Source of the DNA: Hymenobacter lucidus | Lineage (GTDB): Bacteria > Bacteroidota > Bacteroidia > Cytophagales > Hymenobacteraceae | Direction: 5' to 3' | DNA length: 64,000 nucleotides | Assembly: GCF_020447265.1 (NCBI RefSeq) | Contig: NZ_JAJADR010000002.1 | Location: forward strand, 682,001 to 746,000 | Shown: positions 6,084 through 38,954 of the stretch, in pieces | How the letters are laid out: each line of letters starts with the position of its first letter | Numbering within the stretch: position 1 is the first letter of the stretch | Notes under the pieces: model-generated | Told to the model about the DNA's origin: nothing | Databases searched by the model: none | Seen by the model: the letters and a program-made list of their open reading frames with translations, nothing else | Program-made: the position numbers and the translations under genes

Positions 6084-6902
6084 CTATTGCCGCTCCAGCA
6101 CCGCTTTGAGCAAAGCCGTGAGGCGGGGCTCAGCTTCGGCCGCTACCCGCAGAATATCAGCAATGGCGACGCGCTTGAGCTTACCGGGCGAGCATAAATC
6201 GGTGATGACGGAAATGGCCAGCACCGGCAGGCCCGCATGTACGGCGGCAATAACCTCGGGCACGGTGCTCATGCCCACCGCGTCGGCCCCGATAGTGCGC
6301 AGGTAGCGGTATTCGGCGGGCGTTTCGAGCATGGGGCCGGGCAGGCTGGCGTACACGCCGCGCCGCACTTTGTGGGCAAAGCCCAGAGCCTGGGCCGCGT
6401 CCTGGGCCTGGGTAAGCAGGGCGTGGTCGTAGGGCTCCAGCATATCGGGAAAGCGCGGGCCCAATTCGTCGAGGTTGCGGCCCACCAGCGGGTTGGTCGG
6501 CTGCAGGTTGATGTGGTCCTCAATCAGCATCAGGTCGCCGTAGTCGTAGTCGGGGTTCAGGCCGCCGCTGGCATTGCTCACAAACAGCTTCTGAATGCCC
6601 AGCAGCTTCATTACGCGCACCGGAAACACCACCTGCGGCATGCTGTAGCCCTCGTAATAGTGAAAGCGCCCCTGCATAACGAGCACCCGGCGGCCGGCCA
6701 GCGTACCGGCCAGCAAATTGCCCGAGTGGCTTTCGACCGTGGAAACCGGGAAGTGCGGAATATCGGCGTAGGGCAGCGTGAAGGCAATATCGATATCGTG
6801 GACCAGGGCGCCCAGGCCGGTGCCGAGGATGATACCAAATTCGGGCTGAAAGTCGCCGATGCGTTGACGAACATGGGCGGCGGCTTCTTGGAGTTGTTGC
6901 AT
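6084..6902 (-). CDS. Purine-nucleoside phosphorylase (trimeric class)
   Basis: A 272-residue protein from ATG 6902. The longer reading from a TTG at 6980 would start inside a palindrome and is less likely. Family features: GIILGTGLGALVHDI near the N-terminus, HSGNLLAGTLAGRRVLVMQGR, FVSNASGGLNPDYDYGDLM, YASLPGPMLETPAEYR, and GMSTVPEVIAAVHAGLPV followed by ISVITDLC. These are the phosphate- and purine-binding segments of the PNP/MTAP type. It should split inosine/guanosine with phosphate in purine salvage. A TACCTTGC sequence on the reverse strand (6922-6929) may be its -7 box. Confidence 0.93.
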   Translation of the reverse strand: MQQLQEAAAHVRQRIGDFQPEFGIILGTGLGALVHDIDIAFTLPYADIPHFPVSTVESHSGNLLAGTLAGRRVLVMQGRFHYYEGYSMPQVVFPVRVMKLLGIQKLFVSNASGGLNPDYDYGDLMLIEDHINLQPTNPLVGRNLDELGPRFPDMLEPYDHALLTQAQDAAQALGFAHKVRRGVYASLPGPMLETPAEYRYLRTIGADAVGMSTVPEVIAAVHAGLPVLAISVITDLCSPGKLKRVAIADILRVAAEAEPRLTALLKAVLERQ

Positions 6903-6969: not shown

Positions 6970-7025
6970 GGTTCAAACAATTCTGGCCAAACAATTTAAA
7001 TTGTTTGGCCAGAATTGTTTGAACC
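6970..7025. repeat. 56-bp perfect palindrome (copy A)
   Basis: I paired it base by base: 28 bases on each side of the axis between 6997 and 6998 are fully complementary, with no loop. It contains ACAATTTAAATTGT at the centre and CAAACAATTCTG toward each end. It begins 17 bases after the sppA stop codon (reverse strand) and upstream of the PNP gene. A related 70-bp palindrome is at 36871-36940. Confidence 0.95.
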
Positions 7026-7042: not shown

Positions 7043-8803
7043 TTACCGCACGTTCAGCTCAAACGGCAGCCGGGCCTGCACGCCGGTCATGGTCGAGAGC
7101 TTCTTGTACTGCTCGTATACGGGGTAGAGCGGGCCCATTTCCTCGCGCACGAAATGCATGCGGGCTTCTTCACTGATGCCGCTGAACACGTTTTCGAGCA
7201 TATTCTTCTGGCGCGGCAGGCGCTGAATTTTATAGTCGCTGGGCTCCAGGTTGGCGCGGCGGGCCGCAATGCGCAGGGCATCATCAAACGAGCCGAGCAC
7301 GTCCACGAGGCCCCGCTCCTTGGCTTCGGCGCCCGACCATACCCGGCCCGAAGCGAAGCGCCGCAGCCGTTCGACGGGCATGTGGCGGCCCTGGGCGGCT
7401 TTGGTGGTGAAGTCGGCGTAGATGCGGTTTACCTCATTCTGAAACTGCTGCTTCTCGTAGGCCGACAGTGGCCGGGTGATGGTCGGAAAGTCCGAGAACT
7501 TGCCCGTCGTAACCCGGTCGGTGGTGATGCCGAGCTTGTCGCGCAGCAGGGGCTCGATGTTGGGCAACACCCCAAACACGCCAATGCTGCCGGTAATAGT
7601 GCTAGGCTGGGCCACAATGGTGTCGCAGGCCATGGCAATCATGTAGCCGCCCGAGGCCGCCACGTCCGACATAGAGCAGATAATGGGCTTCACCTGTTTG
7701 GTGAGGGCCACTTCGCGATAAATGATGTCAGAAGCCAAAGATGAGCCGCCGGGCGAATTCACGCGCAGCACCACAGCCTTCACCTTGTCGTCGAGGCGGG
7801 CCTGGCGGATGGCCTCAGCGAAGCGGGTGCTGCCGATGCTGCCGTTGCCGCCCTTACCCGTCACGATGTCGCCCTCGGCGTAGATGACGGCAATGCGGTT
7901 GTCGCTGCTGCTCTCGTCGTCATCATCGGCCGATTTGGTGTAGTCCGACAAGCCCACGAGGCTGAGCTTTTTGTCTTTGGCCACGCCCACTTTGCCCTTC
8001 ATGTAGTCGAGGGCCTGGTCGTAGTAGCCCAGGTTGGTCACGAGGCCGTAGCGCTTGGCATCCTCGGCGTTGTGTACCAGCGTCGAGTCGTTGATGACCT
8101 TGAGGCGGGCGGGGTCAATCTTGCGCGACTTGGCCACGTGGGCCAGCATGAAGTCGTTGAGCGAGTTGAGGAACGAGGAGGTCTGCAGGCGGGCAGAGTC
8201 CGACATACTGTCGCGGAAAAACGGCTCGACGGCGCTTTTAAACGAGCCCACGCGGAAGATCTGGGCATCGATACCGGCCTTCTCGAACAGGTTCTTGTAG
8301 TACATCGTCTCGGAGCTGGCCCCGTTGAATTCGAGCGTGCCCTGCGGATTGAGGTAGATTTTGTTGGCTACCGAAGCCAGGTAGTAGCTACCCTCCGACT
8401 GCGCGTCGGCGTAGGACACGATAAACTTGCCCGACTTCTTGAAGTCGAGCAGGGCCTCGCGGATTTCCTCCAGTGAGGCGCGGCCGGCCTGTACCAGCTC
8501 CACGTTCAGGAAAATGCCCTTGATGTCGCCGTCGTTCTTGGCCCGCTTGATGCTGGCCTTGATGTTGTCGAGCCCGATGTTATCGGCCTGGCTGCTAAAC
8601 AAAGCCCCCAGCGACTCGCGGCTTTCGCGCTCGTCAATCGGCTTGTCGAGCTTAAGCTCCAGCACCGAATCCTTGGCCACGGTCACGCTGTCGTCGTCGC
8701 TGACGGCGGCTACCAGCATACCCAGCCCGATGATGAAGGTGACGAACCCAAACAGGACGAGCCCGGTGAGGGTGGCCAGTACGTATTTCAAAAACTGTCT
8801 CAT
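7043..8803 (-). CDS. sppA: Signal peptide peptidase SppA, 67K type
   Basis: A 586-residue membrane protease from ATG 8803; the open frame extends 22 residues upstream but the TACATTTG promoter box at 8839-8846 lies in that extension. One N-terminal membrane segment (YVLATLTGLVLFGFVTFIIG) precedes a duplicated SppA fold. The first half carries the catalytic lysine region VGSFKSAVEPFFRDSMS. The second half carries VLRVNSPGGSSLASD and the nucleophile region SDVAASGGYMIAMACD. Length matches the long (E. coli-like) class. It should degrade cleaved signal peptides in the membrane. It lies downstream of rarA on the same strand and ends at the perfect palindrome, its likely terminator. Confidence 0.94.
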   Translation of the reverse strand: MRQFLKYVLATLTGLVLFGFVTFIIGLGMLVAAVSDDDSVTVAKDSVLELKLDKPIDERESRESLGALFSSQADNIGLDNIKASIKRAKNDGDIKGIFLNVELVQAGRASLEEIREALLDFKKSGKFIVSYADAQSEGSYYLASVANKIYLNPQGTLEFNGASSETMYYKNLFEKAGIDAQIFRVGSFKSAVEPFFRDSMSDSARLQTSSFLNSLNDFMLAHVAKSRKIDPARLKVINDSTLVHNAEDAKRYGLVTNLGYYDQALDYMKGKVGVAKDKKLSLVGLSDYTKSADDDDESSSDNRIAVIYAEGDIVTGKGGNGSIGSTRFAEAIRQARLDDKVKAVVLRVNSPGGSSLASDIIYREVALTKQVKPIICSMSDVAASGGYMIAMACDTIVAQPSTITGSIGVFGVLPNIEPLLRDKLGITTDRVTTGKFSDFPTITRPLSAYEKQQFQNEVNRIYADFTTKAAQGRHMPVERLRRFASGRVWSGAEAKERGLVDVLGSFDDALRIAARRANLEPSDYKIQRLPRQKNMLENVFSGISEEARMHFVREEMGPLYPVYEQYKKLSTMTGVQARLPFELNVR

Positions 8804-8838
8804 GGGAAAAGGAAAGGAATAGCGCGTTGGATAGTCAA

Positions 8839-8846
8839 CAAATGTA
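8839..8846 (-). promoter_or_regulatory. -7 promoter box for sppA
   Basis: Reads TACATTTG on the reverse strand, a full TAnnTTTG match, 35 bases before the sppA ATG. It supports start 8803. Confidence 0.55.
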
Positions 8847-8949
8847 GAAGGCTTTCGGCACTCCTGCATAGAGGCGAAAAACCGGGCCGGGGTTGCCTGT
8901 AGCAGTACTGACGAAAGCGGCCCGCCAATATTTTAGGCTGGTGAGTAAC

Positions 8950-19032: not shown

Positions 19033-19063
19033 GAAGCCAAGGTCAGACGAAATCACCACTAAT

Positions 19064-19160
19064 AGCACGTCATGCTGAGCTTGCCGAAGCAGCTCTCCCG
19101 CAGTAGTAACTAAATTACTTTGGCGAGAGAGCTGCTTCGGCAAGCTCAGCATGACGTGCT
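19064..19160. repeat. Inverted repeat, 34-bp perfect arms, 3' of fabG
   Basis: Arms 19064-19097 and 19127-19160 are exact reverse complements around a 29-base loop, and T residues follow. Each arm contains GTCATGCTGAGCTTGCCGAA. The GTCAT..GAGC end is shared with the other dispersed elements. It probably terminates fabG transcription. Confidence 0.9.
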
Positions 19161-19184
19161 TTTTGATAGGTTATTCCCATTCTC

Positions 19185-35347: not shown

Positions 35348-36571
35348 TTATCCCAGCTTTTCCAGGCACGCTTTGATGCGAGTGAAGGCCTCGCGCAGCT
35401 TTTCATCGGAGGCGGCGGTGCTGAAGCGGATGCAGTTAGGCGCGCCAAAGGCCTCGCCCGTCACGGCAGCTACGTGGCCCTCGTTGAGCATGTATAGGGC
35501 CAGATCGGTGGCAGTGCTGATGCGCGAGCCATCGGGTGCGGTGCGGCCGAAGTAGGCGCTGACGTCGGGGAAGATGTAGAAGGCGCCGCTGGGCGTGGGC
35601 GTTTTGAAGCCCGGAATTTCCTGCACCTGGGTTAGCACCATGTCGCGGCGGCGGCGGTAAGCTTCCACCATCGTATCGGCCGAGGTGCGGCCGCCCTGCA
35701 ACGCGGCCAGGGCCGCGCGCTGGGCTACCGAGCAGGTGCCGGAGGTAATCTGGCTCTGCATTTTCTCGCAGGCGGCGGCAATTTCGCGGGTGGCGGCCAG
35801 GTAGCCCACGCGCCAGCCCGTCATGGCGTAGCCCTTCGAGAAGCCATTGACGGTGATGACCCGGTCTTTGATATCGCCGAACTGGGCCAGGCTGACGTGC
35901 TCCCCTACAAAATTAATGTACTCGTAAATCTCGTCGGCCAGCACGTGAATGCGTGGGTGGCGGGCCACTACCTCGGCAATGCCGCTCAGCTCCTGGCGCG
36001 TAAACACCGAGCCGGTGGGGTTGCAGGGCGAGGAGTACATGATGAGCTTGGTGCGGGGCGTAATGGCCGCTTCCAGCTGCGCGGCCGTTACTTTGTAATC
36101 GTTTTCGAGGGTACCCAGCAGCGTCACGGTTACGCCCTCGGCCAGGCGTACCATTTCCTCGTAGCTCACCCAATAGGGGGCAAACACGATAACCTCGTCG
36201 CCGGGATTTACCAAACTCATCACGGCGTTGGCCAGCGCCTGCTTGGCCCCGGTGCTTACCACAATGTTTTCGGGCTTGTAGGCCAGCTGGTTTTCGCGCT
36301 GCAATTTATCGGCAATGGCCTGGCGCAGATCGGGGTAGCCGGGCACGGGCGTGTACTTGGTGTAGCCCGCATCCATGGCTTTCTTGGCCGCCTCCCGGAT
36401 GTATTCGGGCGTTTCGAAGTCCGGCTCGCCGAAGCTCAGATTAATCACATCAATGCCCTGGGCCATCAGCTCGCGGGCTTTTTTGGCCATGGCAATCGTC
36501 TGGGACTCCTGCAAGGCACTGATGCGGTCGGATAAAATGGAAGGAGCAAGCACGGCGGCGGAATTAAGCAT
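35348..36571 (-). CDS. Aspartate-type aminotransferase (class I, PLP)
   Basis: A 407-residue fold-type I aminotransferase from ATG 36571 (MLNSAAVLAPSILSDRISALQESQTIAM). Family features: INLSFGEPDFETPEYI, the VSTGAKQALANAVMSLVNPGDEV cofactor-binding segment, SPCNPTGSVF, and the Schiff-base lysine in VNGFSKGYAMTGWRVGY. The IRFSTAASDEKL terminus carries the substrate-carboxylate arginine. It resembles the Bacillus/Thermus AspAT subgroup (Ib) and should interconvert aspartate and oxaloacetate. A TACTTTTG box is upstream at 36598-36605. Confidence 0.92.
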   Translation of the reverse strand: MLNSAAVLAPSILSDRISALQESQTIAMAKKARELMAQGIDVINLSFGEPDFETPEYIREAAKKAMDAGYTKYTPVPGYPDLRQAIADKLQRENQLAYKPENIVVSTGAKQALANAVMSLVNPGDEVIVFAPYWVSYEEMVRLAEGVTVTLLGTLENDYKVTAAQLEAAITPRTKLIMYSSPCNPTGSVFTRQELSGIAEVVARHPRIHVLADEIYEYINFVGEHVSLAQFGDIKDRVITVNGFSKGYAMTGWRVGYLAATREIAAACEKMQSQITSGTCSVAQRAALAALQGGRTSADTMVEAYRRRRDMVLTQVQEIPGFKTPTPSGAFYIFPDVSAYFGRTAPDGSRISTATDLALYMLNEGHVAAVTGEAFGAPNCIRFSTAASDEKLREAFTRIKACLEKLG

Positions 36572-36597: not shown

Positions 36598-36605
36598 CAA
36601 AAGTA
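36598..36605 (-). promoter_or_regulatory. -7 promoter box for aminotransferase gene
   Basis: TACTTTTG on the reverse strand, full consensus, 27 bases before ATG 36571. Confidence 0.55.
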
Positions 36606-36870: not shown

Positions 36871-36940
36871 GCATCAAAACCCAAACAATTCTGAGCAAAC
36901 AATTTAAATTGTTTGCTCAGAATTGTTTGGGTTTTGATGC
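36871..36940. repeat. 70-bp perfect palindrome (copy B)
   Basis: All 35 base pairs on either side of the axis between 36905 and 36906 are complementary, with no loop. It shares the central ACAATTTAAATTGT and the CAAACAATTCTG blocks with copy A (6970-7025), while the three bases between the blocks differ in both arms together. It starts 5 bases after the stop codon of the reverse-strand glycosyltransferase gene. Confidence 0.95.
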
Positions 36941-36944
36941 TCCT

Positions 36945-38954
36945 TTACCCCTGCCGGCCCAGTTCGCGCAGGCAGCGTAGCACGATGCTGACATCCGTGG
37001 AGGGCTCATAGTCTTTGGCGTAGAGCAGCTCGAGGCGGCGGCGGGTGGCTTCGGGCAGGGAAGTGTTGGCGTGGGCAGCATCGGCGGGCGAGAGAATAGC
37101 ACGGGCGGTGCGGCGCGGGGCCACGGCGTGGCGCAGGCCCACCCAGGTGCAGCGGCCGCTGAGCACGCGCAGGCAGTTGCGCAGAAAGCCGGCTTTTTCC
37201 TTTTGCAGCCAGATAAGCAGCGGCGCACTTAGCAGCAGGGCCAGGCTCAGCAGCACGTCGAGCAGGCGCTTGTTGCGGGCGTGCTGGGGCTGGTAGAGGT
37301 TCAGGGCAATATCGAGGGCGTAGTAGTCGCCGGGGGCGTCTTTCGAGGAGCTGCCGATAATGTACTCACTGTCTTCGGGCAGAATCTTGTAGGCCACCGG
37401 CGGCTGCTGGGGCAGCTCCACCATGAGGGCAATAATCTGACTGGCCGACAGGTCTTTGCCGCAGAAAATCAGCTCATCCAGCGCGTAAATGCGGATAATA
37501 TCGTCGAGCTGCCGCACCTCGCCCAAAGAGTCTTCGGTAGGGGTATGAGGGTATGAGGGTATGGGGGCATGAGGGTCGGGCGCGACTACATCGGGCGTGA
37601 CGTAGCCGATGATACGGGCCTGCACGGCGGCCGTTTCCAGGAGTTGGCGCACCCGGCGGCTTTCGGTAGCCGAGCCCACGATGGCCACGTTTTTCTGCCG
37701 CCGCTCGTTGAGGCGCAGGTCGCGGTAGCGGTAGAAATGCAGCGCCAGCCGCCGCCCCACCATGGCCGCAATGCTCCAGACCCCGCCCAAGATGATGAGG
37801 GCTTTGGAAAAGCGGTAGGCGTCGAGGAAGTTGGAAAAGGCCGAAATAAGCACCGTGCCCAGAAAAATACCCCGCACGATGCGCCCGGTTTTGGGAGGCT
37901 GGTCGTAGGCCCCGCTGAAGTAGGCCGACGTAAGCCAGACCACGATGTAGGCGGGCACGGCCACGAGCATAAACTCGGGCGGGTAGTCGGTGCGGACGTA
38001 CTTGTGGTTTTGCTCCCAGTAGTTTTTCAGGAAGTACATGCCCGCGTAAATCAGGCCCGCATCGAGCAGCACGGGTGCGGCCTGTACCAGCAGGCGCTGG
38101 GCCACGGCCAGCCCGGCCCGCAACCAGATGGCCAGGTTTATCAGCAACGAAAACGTGCCGGCGCGCTGGGGGGCAAAGTGCTTGCGGGCAAAAATGACCA
38201 TAGCCCGGTAGAACACGAACACGTAGTTGACGCTCGTGCGCTTAGTACTTTCGCCCTTGTAGTGAATGATGCGGGTGCCGGGGAAATAGTAGTTTTTCCA
38301 GCCGCCCTGGGTGAGGCGGTACGAGAGGTCAATGTCCTCGCCGTACATGAAGTAGTCTTCGTCGAGCAGCCCGACTTGGTCGAGGGCGGTGCGGCGCATC
38401 AGCATAAAGGCACCGCTGAGCACCTCTATTTCGTGGGTTTCGTCTTTATCGAGGTAGCCGAGGTGGTAGCGGCCAAAGGTGCGCGACTTCGGAAACAAAC
38501 TGGCCAGCCCGAAAATCTTGTAGAAGGCCACCGCCGGCGTGGGCAGTCCCCGCTTGCTTTCGGGCAGAAACTTACCCTGGCCGTCGAGCATTTTCACGCC
38601 CAGTCCGCCCCCGTCGGGGTAGGCATCCATGAAGTCGCAGCAGGCCCGGAAGGTGTCTTCCTCCACCACCGTATCAGGGTTAAGGAGCAGAATATACTCG
38701 CCCTGGGCCACGCGCATCGCCTGGTTGTTGGCCTTGCTGAAGCCTGGATTATCCTTATTCTCAATCAAAATGACCTCCGGGAAGCGCGCCCGCACCATGG
38801 CCACTGAACCGTCGACGGAGTTGTTGTCGACGACGAATACCTCGGCCGGCGCGCCCAGCTTTTCCACCGCCCGCCGCACCGACAACAGGGCCTGCTCCAG
38901 AAAATAGCAGACGTTGTAATTGACGATAACGACGGAAAGCTTCACGGAATGCAC
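36945..38954 (-). CDS. Hybrid GT2 glycosyltransferase with degenerate sugar-transferase region
   Basis: A 669-residue protein starting at GTG 38954, or GTG 38945 to give MKLSVVIVNYNV. Parts: a GT2 rhamnosyltransferase-like domain (1-250; VVDNNSVDGS, LLLNPDTVVEED, EDYFMYGEDIDLSYRL); about five membrane helices (270-400); a Rossmann-like module (about 420-550; KNVAIVGSATESRRVRQLLE), as in WcaJ/WbaP-type priming enzymes. The C-terminus (560-669) keeps the framing pieces of the bacterial sugar-transferase domain (NKRLLDVLLSLALLLSAPLL, RVLSGRCTWVGLR, YAKDYEPSTDVSIVLRCL) but lacks the catalytic middle. Likely an envelope polysaccharide glycosyltransferase. A short Pro/His/Tyr repeat at 461-475 is coded by GTATGAGG units. 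Confidence 0.82.
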   Translation of the reverse strand: MHSVKLSVVIVNYNVCYFLEQALLSVRRAVEKLGAPAEVFVVDNNSVDGSVAMVRARFPEVILIENKDNPGFSKANNQAMRVAQGEYILLLNPDTVVEEDTFRACCDFMDAYPDGGGLGVKMLDGQGKFLPESKRGLPTPAVAFYKIFGLASLFPKSRTFGRYHLGYLDKDETHEIEVLSGAFMLMRRTALDQVGLLDEDYFMYGEDIDLSYRLTQGGWKNYYFPGTRIIHYKGESTKRTSVNYVFVFYRAMVIFARKHFAPQRAGTFSLLINLAIWLRAGLAVAQRLLVQAAPVLLDAGLIYAGMYFLKNYWEQNHKYVRTDYPPEFMLVAVPAYIVVWLTSAYFSGAYDQPPKTGRIVRGIFLGTVLISAFSNFLDAYRFSKALIILGGVWSIAAMVGRRLALHFYRYRDLRLNERRQKNVAIVGSATESRRVRQLLETAAVQARIIGYVTPDVVAPDPHAPIPSYPHTPTEDSLGEVRQLDDIIRIYALDELIFCGKDLSASQIIALMVELPQQPPVAYKILPEDSEYIIGSSSKDAPGDYYALDIALNLYQPQHARNKRLLDVLLSLALLLSAPLLIWLQKEKAGFLRNCLRVLSGRCTWVGLRHAVAPRRTARAILSPADAAHANTSLPEATRRRLELLYAKDYEPSTDVSIVLRCLRELGRQG
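37541..37576. repeat. GGTATGAGG tandem repeat inside glycosyltransferase gene
   Basis: About four imperfect 9-base units (GGGTATGAG) in a row, in phase, coding for PHAPIPSYPHTP-like residues at the loop of the Rossmann-like module. A shorter copy is intergenic at 29916-29940. Confidence 0.7.

Follow-up and report, generated by a model that had tools for sequence, protein, structure and literature searches.

Perfect palindromes in Hymenobacter lucidus as probable operators of an autoregulated helix-turn-helix protein

Palindromes A and B and their neighbouring genes

In this study, we examined two perfect palindromes within a window of 64,000 nucleotides from Hymenobacter lucidus and relate them to a family of helix-turn-helix (HTH) proteins. 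Palindrome A (6970..7025, without assigned strand) has arms of 28 bp and palindrome B (36871..36940, likewise) arms of 35 bp. A first-pass annotation had described both as perfectly self-complementary and loopless, which they are at exactly these positions. Each is built on a 48-bp core (6974-7021 in A, 36882-36929 in B) that reads CAAACAATT-CTGnn-CAAACAATTT followed by its complement, nn being GC in A and AG in B, with the same difference in both arms. The annotation had a whole triplet differing between the shared blocks; the joint change of both arms stands, but it concerns two bases only. The shared blocks form four 9-bp half-sites, two direct repeats and then the inverted ones. In A, the outer half-site CAAACAATT (6974..6982) is repeated directly 14 bp on as the inner half-site (6988..6996), both on the forward strand, and the inverted inner and outer half-sites follow on the reverse strand (6999..7007 and 7013..7021). 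The corresponding half-sites of B lie at 36882..36890 and 36896..36904 on the forward strand and, inverted, at 36907..36915 (inner) and 36921..36929 (outer) on the reverse strand. Beyond the core, A has a complementary extension of 4 bp per side (GGTT/AACC) and B one of 11 bp (GCATCAAAACC and its complement). All eight occurrences of CAAACAATT in the window fall inside A and B, against 0.39 expected, and 800 kb of the same contig hold 14 loopless palindromes with arms of at least 14 bp, whereas 20 block-shuffles gave 0 on average. The two palindromes are far beyond chance.

Both palindromes begin within 20 bases of a reverse-strand stop codon, as the annotation had observed: A lies 17 bp past that of an S49 peptidase gene (7043..8869, reverse strand), B 4 bp past that of a glycosyltransferase gene (36945..38954, reverse strand). 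They are equally upstream of the next reverse-strand gene, and their position fits a 3′-UTR as well as a 5′ one. At A, this next gene encodes a PNP_UDP_1 phosphorylase-superfamily protein of the purine nucleoside phosphorylase type (PNP; 6084..6902, reverse strand), with 67 bp between the end of A and its likely ATG. At B, it encodes a class I/II aminotransferase (35348..36571, reverse strand), 299 bp off, whose likely ATG at 36571 was set by comparison with the related genome G069. These two are the genes that we propose may be regulated. Between B and the aminotransferase gene, TACTTTTG (36598..36605, reverse strand) fits TAnnTTTG, the −7 box of Bacteroidetes.

Given their distance to the stop codons, A and B could be terminators or mRNA 3′-end hairpins, unusually symmetric, of the S49 peptidase and glycosyltransferase genes. 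Consistent with this are their predicted RNA stabilities (−53 kcal/mol for B and −41.3 kcal/mol for A; z of −13.2 and −11.9) and a perfect downstream hairpin with an arm of at least 14 bp at 12 of 30 S49 loci, that of H. lucidus included, these hairpins being of several unrelated sequences. The same contig also holds loopless perfect palindromes with arms of 25-30 bp between convergent genes (C16:65519-65578, 168397-168452, 179065-179120 and 592457-592506), three of which contain a terminator-like GC stem with A/T tract, and terminators of this genome seem to be perfectly symmetric beyond their functional stem as well. Against this, no T-run follows the whole palindromes A and B, and their stem is AT-rich. 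A terminator scan that covered B flagged it through the T's of its own extended arm.

A third copy and the same loci in related genomes

The genome-wide search that the first-pass annotation had proposed, run with the 24-base half and up to three mismatches, returned exactly one further copy in the 5.94-Mb genome (C16:113311-113358, arm 24). It sits between two divergent gene starts and not past a stop codon, 26 bp before the ATG of an HTH gene (C16:113385-113939) and 51 bp before an opposite gene resembling a radical SAM protein (label by eye). A copy so placed is at odds with the stop-codon rule and directs attention to the HTH gene, and the link of A and B to stop codons is probably incidental. 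The 3′-end role implied by the annotation fares badly with a copy in a divergent promoter gap, with the missing T-run and with the lack of one-sided (G-U) intermediates described below, and we regard a terminator as unlikely. The HTH gene encodes a protein of 184 aa with an XRE-like N-terminus and an unnamed C-terminal domain. Its score against the Pfam HTH profile is 16.6 bits (cut-off 25.8), and it aligns with family members that exceed their cut-offs, namely L181 (HTH_31, 34.4 bits, cut-off 27), L185 (HTH_3, 38.7 bits, cut-off 23), L222 and L178. A plasmid or phage origin of the protein was considered and dropped, tblastn giving no match in either collection.

To what extent the palindromes are shared depends on how closely the letters must agree. 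Among 59 relatives, at up to two mismatches, the palindrome was matched in H. lucidus only. A wider search of the genus at up to three mismatches found the palindrome in 5 of 120 genomes, and among GTDB contigs an exact pattern of this type is present only in Hymenobacter metallicola and H. nitidus, at two places each. The A palindrome is shared, at the same place, by H. lucidus, G083 and G069, the B palindrome by these three and G090, and the HTH-leader palindrome by H. lucidus and G090. The G090 copy lies 28 bp upstream of the ATG of a related HTH gene, whose neighbourhood is a different one. A fourth place, site D, after an rplQ-like gene (label by eye), is found in G069 and G001 (2 of 11 genomes). 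The complementary extension at B, 11 bp in H. lucidus, measures 0 bp in G083, 2 bp in G069 and 1 bp in G090 at the same place.

When the loci themselves were compared, 7 of 30 B loci, those of H. lucidus and its six nearest relatives, held a perfect palindrome with an arm of 24-35 bp, a restriction that also argues against a terminator of the glycosyltransferase gene; the remaining 23 had no perfect hairpin (arm of at least 9 bp, loop of at most 14) in the 300 bp read. The words at B differ between genomes, with GTACACTTTT..TGTAACAC in G060, TGTAACAAAA in G068 and TGAAACACTTTT in G067. Perfect pairing is thus kept at the same places in relatives, in some with different letters, and neither a lack of further copies nor a loss of pairing in relatives, which the annotation had named as evidence against its view, was found. 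Separately, a viral source of the motif was rejected, since none of the 12 viral contigs with the two-word pattern is palindromic there. We also observed an imperfect hairpin of about 100 bp in the window (19061-19163, TCATGCTGAGCTTGCCGAAGC type); several relatives have similar hairpins in their S49 and glycosyltransferase gaps.

Two further explanations are touched by this distribution. Perfect inverted repeats are the typical shape of a sequencing or assembly artefact (foldback or adaptor). Yet H. metallicola and H. nitidus, whose genomes were deposited separately, have such palindromes after the same genes, with different letters in H. nitidus, and an artefact is scarcely credible. Near-identical dispersed copies accompanying a particular gene would also suit a small mobile palindromic repeat of REP or MITE type, scattered by a helper protein. 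Against this, the H. lucidus genome has only three copies, and in G060 a different sequence occupies the same three loci. The associated protein has no nuclease or transposase match in Pfam, no target duplication was seen by eye, and the single plasmid match is at chance level (E 0.6). We consider a mobile repeat very improbable.

A helix-turn-helix family with private leader words

The HTH protein belongs to a large family. In ten genomes of the clade its profile finds 9 to 22 matches each, and 38 of the 148 genomes searched in the order have a match, fragments included in both counts; in other genera, matches end by about position 120 of 187 in 22 of 28 matched genomes and cover mainly the HTH part. 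Of the first 30 HTH loci, 14 have a leader with a perfect palindrome (arm of at least 22 bp, loop 0-12), about 16-61 bp before the HTH start, and many other leaders hold arrays of the same kind. The words vary by paralogue ([CT]AAACAAT, TGAAACA, TGCAACA, TGTGACA, TGCTACA), and 60 further paralogues add TTGTCTCC, TGTGACGTTT, CGGAAGCA, TTGTGTC and others. A 7-mer occurs at least three times within 120 bp in 59 of 90 HTH leaders, compared to 5 of 1800 shuffles and 37 of 626 contig ORFs, the latter including at least five that are themselves HTH leaders or contain palindrome A or C; the start codons that define the leaders were assigned by a rule that may have erred in some cases. The other 31 of the 90 leaders have no thrice-repeated 7-mer, and in about nine no array was seen by eye (L174, L178, L190, L195, L203, L209, L224, L225, L227). 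TAnnTTTG has 9 matches in the 90 leaders versus 5.2 in shuffles, and no promoter was located with it. No constant neighbour gene was found across the 30 HTH loci (about 3.5 kb each, labels by eye).

Several individual loci deserve mention. In four genomes (L149, L151, L154 and L156, from G017, G067, G068 and G090), the HTH gene follows a gene resembling a BLUF photoreceptor (by eye), which raises the question of light control; H. lucidus and G083 have a radical SAM-like gene instead. At L173, a tandem run of GCGGGATGCAACAAA precedes a palindrome of the same word in the HTH leader. Finally, H. lucidus has an imperfect four-word site at C16:176092-176142 (L086), with words of GTAACAATT type and spacers complementary at 4 of 6 positions, upstream of an M1-type aminopeptidase-like gene (by eye); it may belong to a different protein of the family.

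If these words are binding sites, they should follow the part of the protein that reads DNA. For the 59 of 90 leaders with a thrice-repeated 7-mer, taken with proteins of at least 140 aa, leader word and recognition helix are correlated when the C-terminal domain is controlled (partial rank correlation 0.29, reached in 0 of 999 permutations). There is also a correlation of word sharing with the C-terminal domain when the helix is controlled (0.23), and part of the effect is thus due to common descent. More telling, among pairs whose C-terminal parts are at least 40% identical, a repeated word is shared in 91 of 126 whose recognition helices are at least 70% identical, in 16 of 165 at 50-70% and in 5 of 165 below 50%. 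Word sharing that follows the recognition helix is the pattern that DNA-binding proteins and their sites should produce. That A and B have their word in common with HTH leaders weighs, too, against the terminator reading.

A further comparison comes from a sister species. In H. lucidus, the CAAACAATT palindrome is found at three places only, the HTH leader, A and B. In G060, a search with the arm RWACACTTTTnnnTGWAACA (at most one mismatch) likewise gave three places only, each palindromic: the HTH leader, the gap between S49 peptidase and PNP genes, and that between glycosyltransferase and aminotransferase genes. Its word is quite unlike that of H. lucidus. To judge from the sequences, it is as if regulator and sites had been re-spelled together. 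In G067 and G090, the leader matches B and not A, and the leader of G083 is merely similar to its own A (0.76) and B (0.70). Across seven genomes, with arms chosen by eye and G001 left out, as no B palindrome was found there, the within-genome similarity of leader and B was reached by 6 of 5040 permutations and that of A and B, which is mild, by 132, whereas that of leader and A was not significant (968 of 5040); these counts are guides, the genomes being related and H. lucidus and G083 having the same B core.

Other genomes fit less neatly. In G069, CAAACAATT palindromes stand at A, B and D; nine of its 19 HTH matches were read for their leaders and show no such word, and a pattern search found no fourth copy. 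Among the leaders read there was also no match for A and B of G068 (12 of 14 read), or for A of G067 (6 of 13), of G090 (6 of 9) or of G001 (11 of 21, one a fragment). The regulators of such leaderless sites may have been lost or lie among the unread leaders, or the link may be looser than proposed.

Taken together, we think it fairly likely that A and B serve as operators, two exported sites of an HTH protein that regulates its own gene and belongs to a large family, mainly confined to the genus, whose members have private words. Under this model, built on sequence comparison, the protein would bind four 9-bp half-sites at A, at B and in its own leader, would repress its own gene through the leader operator, and would modulate PNP from site A and the aminotransferase from site B, both from upstream. 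Many members of the family combine a private leader word with a corresponding change of recognition helix. These ready-made pairs of protein and word make a recognition code, and a joint change of specificity in regulator and target, directly testable.

Perfect pairing and comparison with known systems

Binding of four half-sites would account for the words, and it is important to understand why the bases around them pair as well. Of 30 distinct sites that have four AACA words, 25 show full complementarity of the spacer between half-sites, and spacer complementarity is 92% within sites versus 43% between sites; the count took only sites whose four words lie 14-15 bp apart, which makes the words present by design. 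Across seven distinct cores of 48 bp, 154 of 154 pair cells are standard; 5 of 22 pairs differ in both partners, and no pair differs in a single partner (10 two-sided changes versus 0 one-sided). The first-pass annotation had read the matched changes as the trace of selection for pairing or of hairpin-templated copying, and pairing is indeed kept while letters change. For a terminator, the lack of one-sided pair changes is a further difficulty. In the HTH family, pairing is not obligatory, since five sites have unpaired spacer positions and the leaders of L155, L157, L165 and L175 have repeated words with unpaired spacers or without continuous symmetry.

The same observations bear on a possible RNA hairpin, which, whether protein-bound or not, would control translation or mRNA decay from 5′ leaders or between cistrons. 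The strong predicted stem and the location about 16-61 bp before HTH start codons agree with such a role. However, the four leaders just named keep their words despite unpaired spacers or broken symmetry, the seven cores show no one-sided intermediates of the G-U type, and the words covary with a DNA-recognition helix. An RNA hairpin appears to us quite improbable; the self-complementary spacers, together with changes on two sides only, favour symmetry at the level of DNA over RNA folding.

How this symmetry arises can be viewed in two ways. Quasipalindrome template switching is described in two published accounts (PMC7202029, PMC3820800) as acting at imperfect inverted repeats and extending the identity of their arms. 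Hairpin-templated copying is perhaps the source of the DNA-level symmetry here, and correction of this kind would produce the two-sided changes together with the site-specific extensions; both would equally result if a symmetric or folded DNA target were selected. On our preferred reading as operators, spacer and flank pairing would be a by-product of hairpin-templated (quasipalindrome) copying on an operator that was already nearly symmetric, its half-sites being maintained by protein binding. A bolder version, possible but rather unlikely, is that the folded form itself is selected: the HTH subfamily would recognise or drive an operator cruciform or hairpin that brings the four half-sites together, spacers and flanks would have to stay complementary, and distant copies would be rewritten in concert with the regulator's word. 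Loss of SbcCD as the reason why the palindromes persist was discarded, as SbcD scored above cut-off in 5 of 5 genomes tested. The palindromes offer a clean system in which to ask whether operator symmetry comes about through selection or through hairpin-templated copying.

With regard to earlier work, none of the literature matches listed dealt with this HTH family, and one mentioned Hymenobacter, in a study of LexA. Dispersed palindromes associated with a helper gene are known from REP/RAYT and MITE systems, and dispersed palindromes with an associated gene are also what we find, with the difference of three copies, fixed loci and no nuclease match. The XRE-type antitoxins of the HipB/HigA/PezA type are autorepressors whose autogenous operators have inverted half-sites; HTH matches are in common, with likeness to PezA and HipB among PDB chains. 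In the six proteins scanned, all NCBIfam antitoxin profiles (HipB, HigA, MqsA) remained below cut-off (best 33.4 bits versus 71.65), the word here also occurs at unrelated loci, and no constant neighbour was seen by eye in the 30 HTH loci. Quasipalindrome mutagenesis, known from E. coli and yeast, is here proposed in a role of its own, as maker of operator symmetry. Controller (C) proteins, which are small HTH proteins of XRE type, are encoded next to a restriction enzyme and control their own gene from paired inverted half-sites immediately before it. No restriction gene was recognised near the 30 HTH loci (about 3.5 kb, by eye), unlike in C-protein systems, and the present family further differs in having 9 to 22 matches to its profile in each clade genome (fragments counted) and in protein size, the chains of C.BclI and C.AhdI having 74-77 residues compared to 184 aa here, the C-terminal part of which has no matching solved chain in the PDB. 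In sequence comparison with the PDB, C.AhdI and C.BclI rank among the best matches to the family's HTH part.
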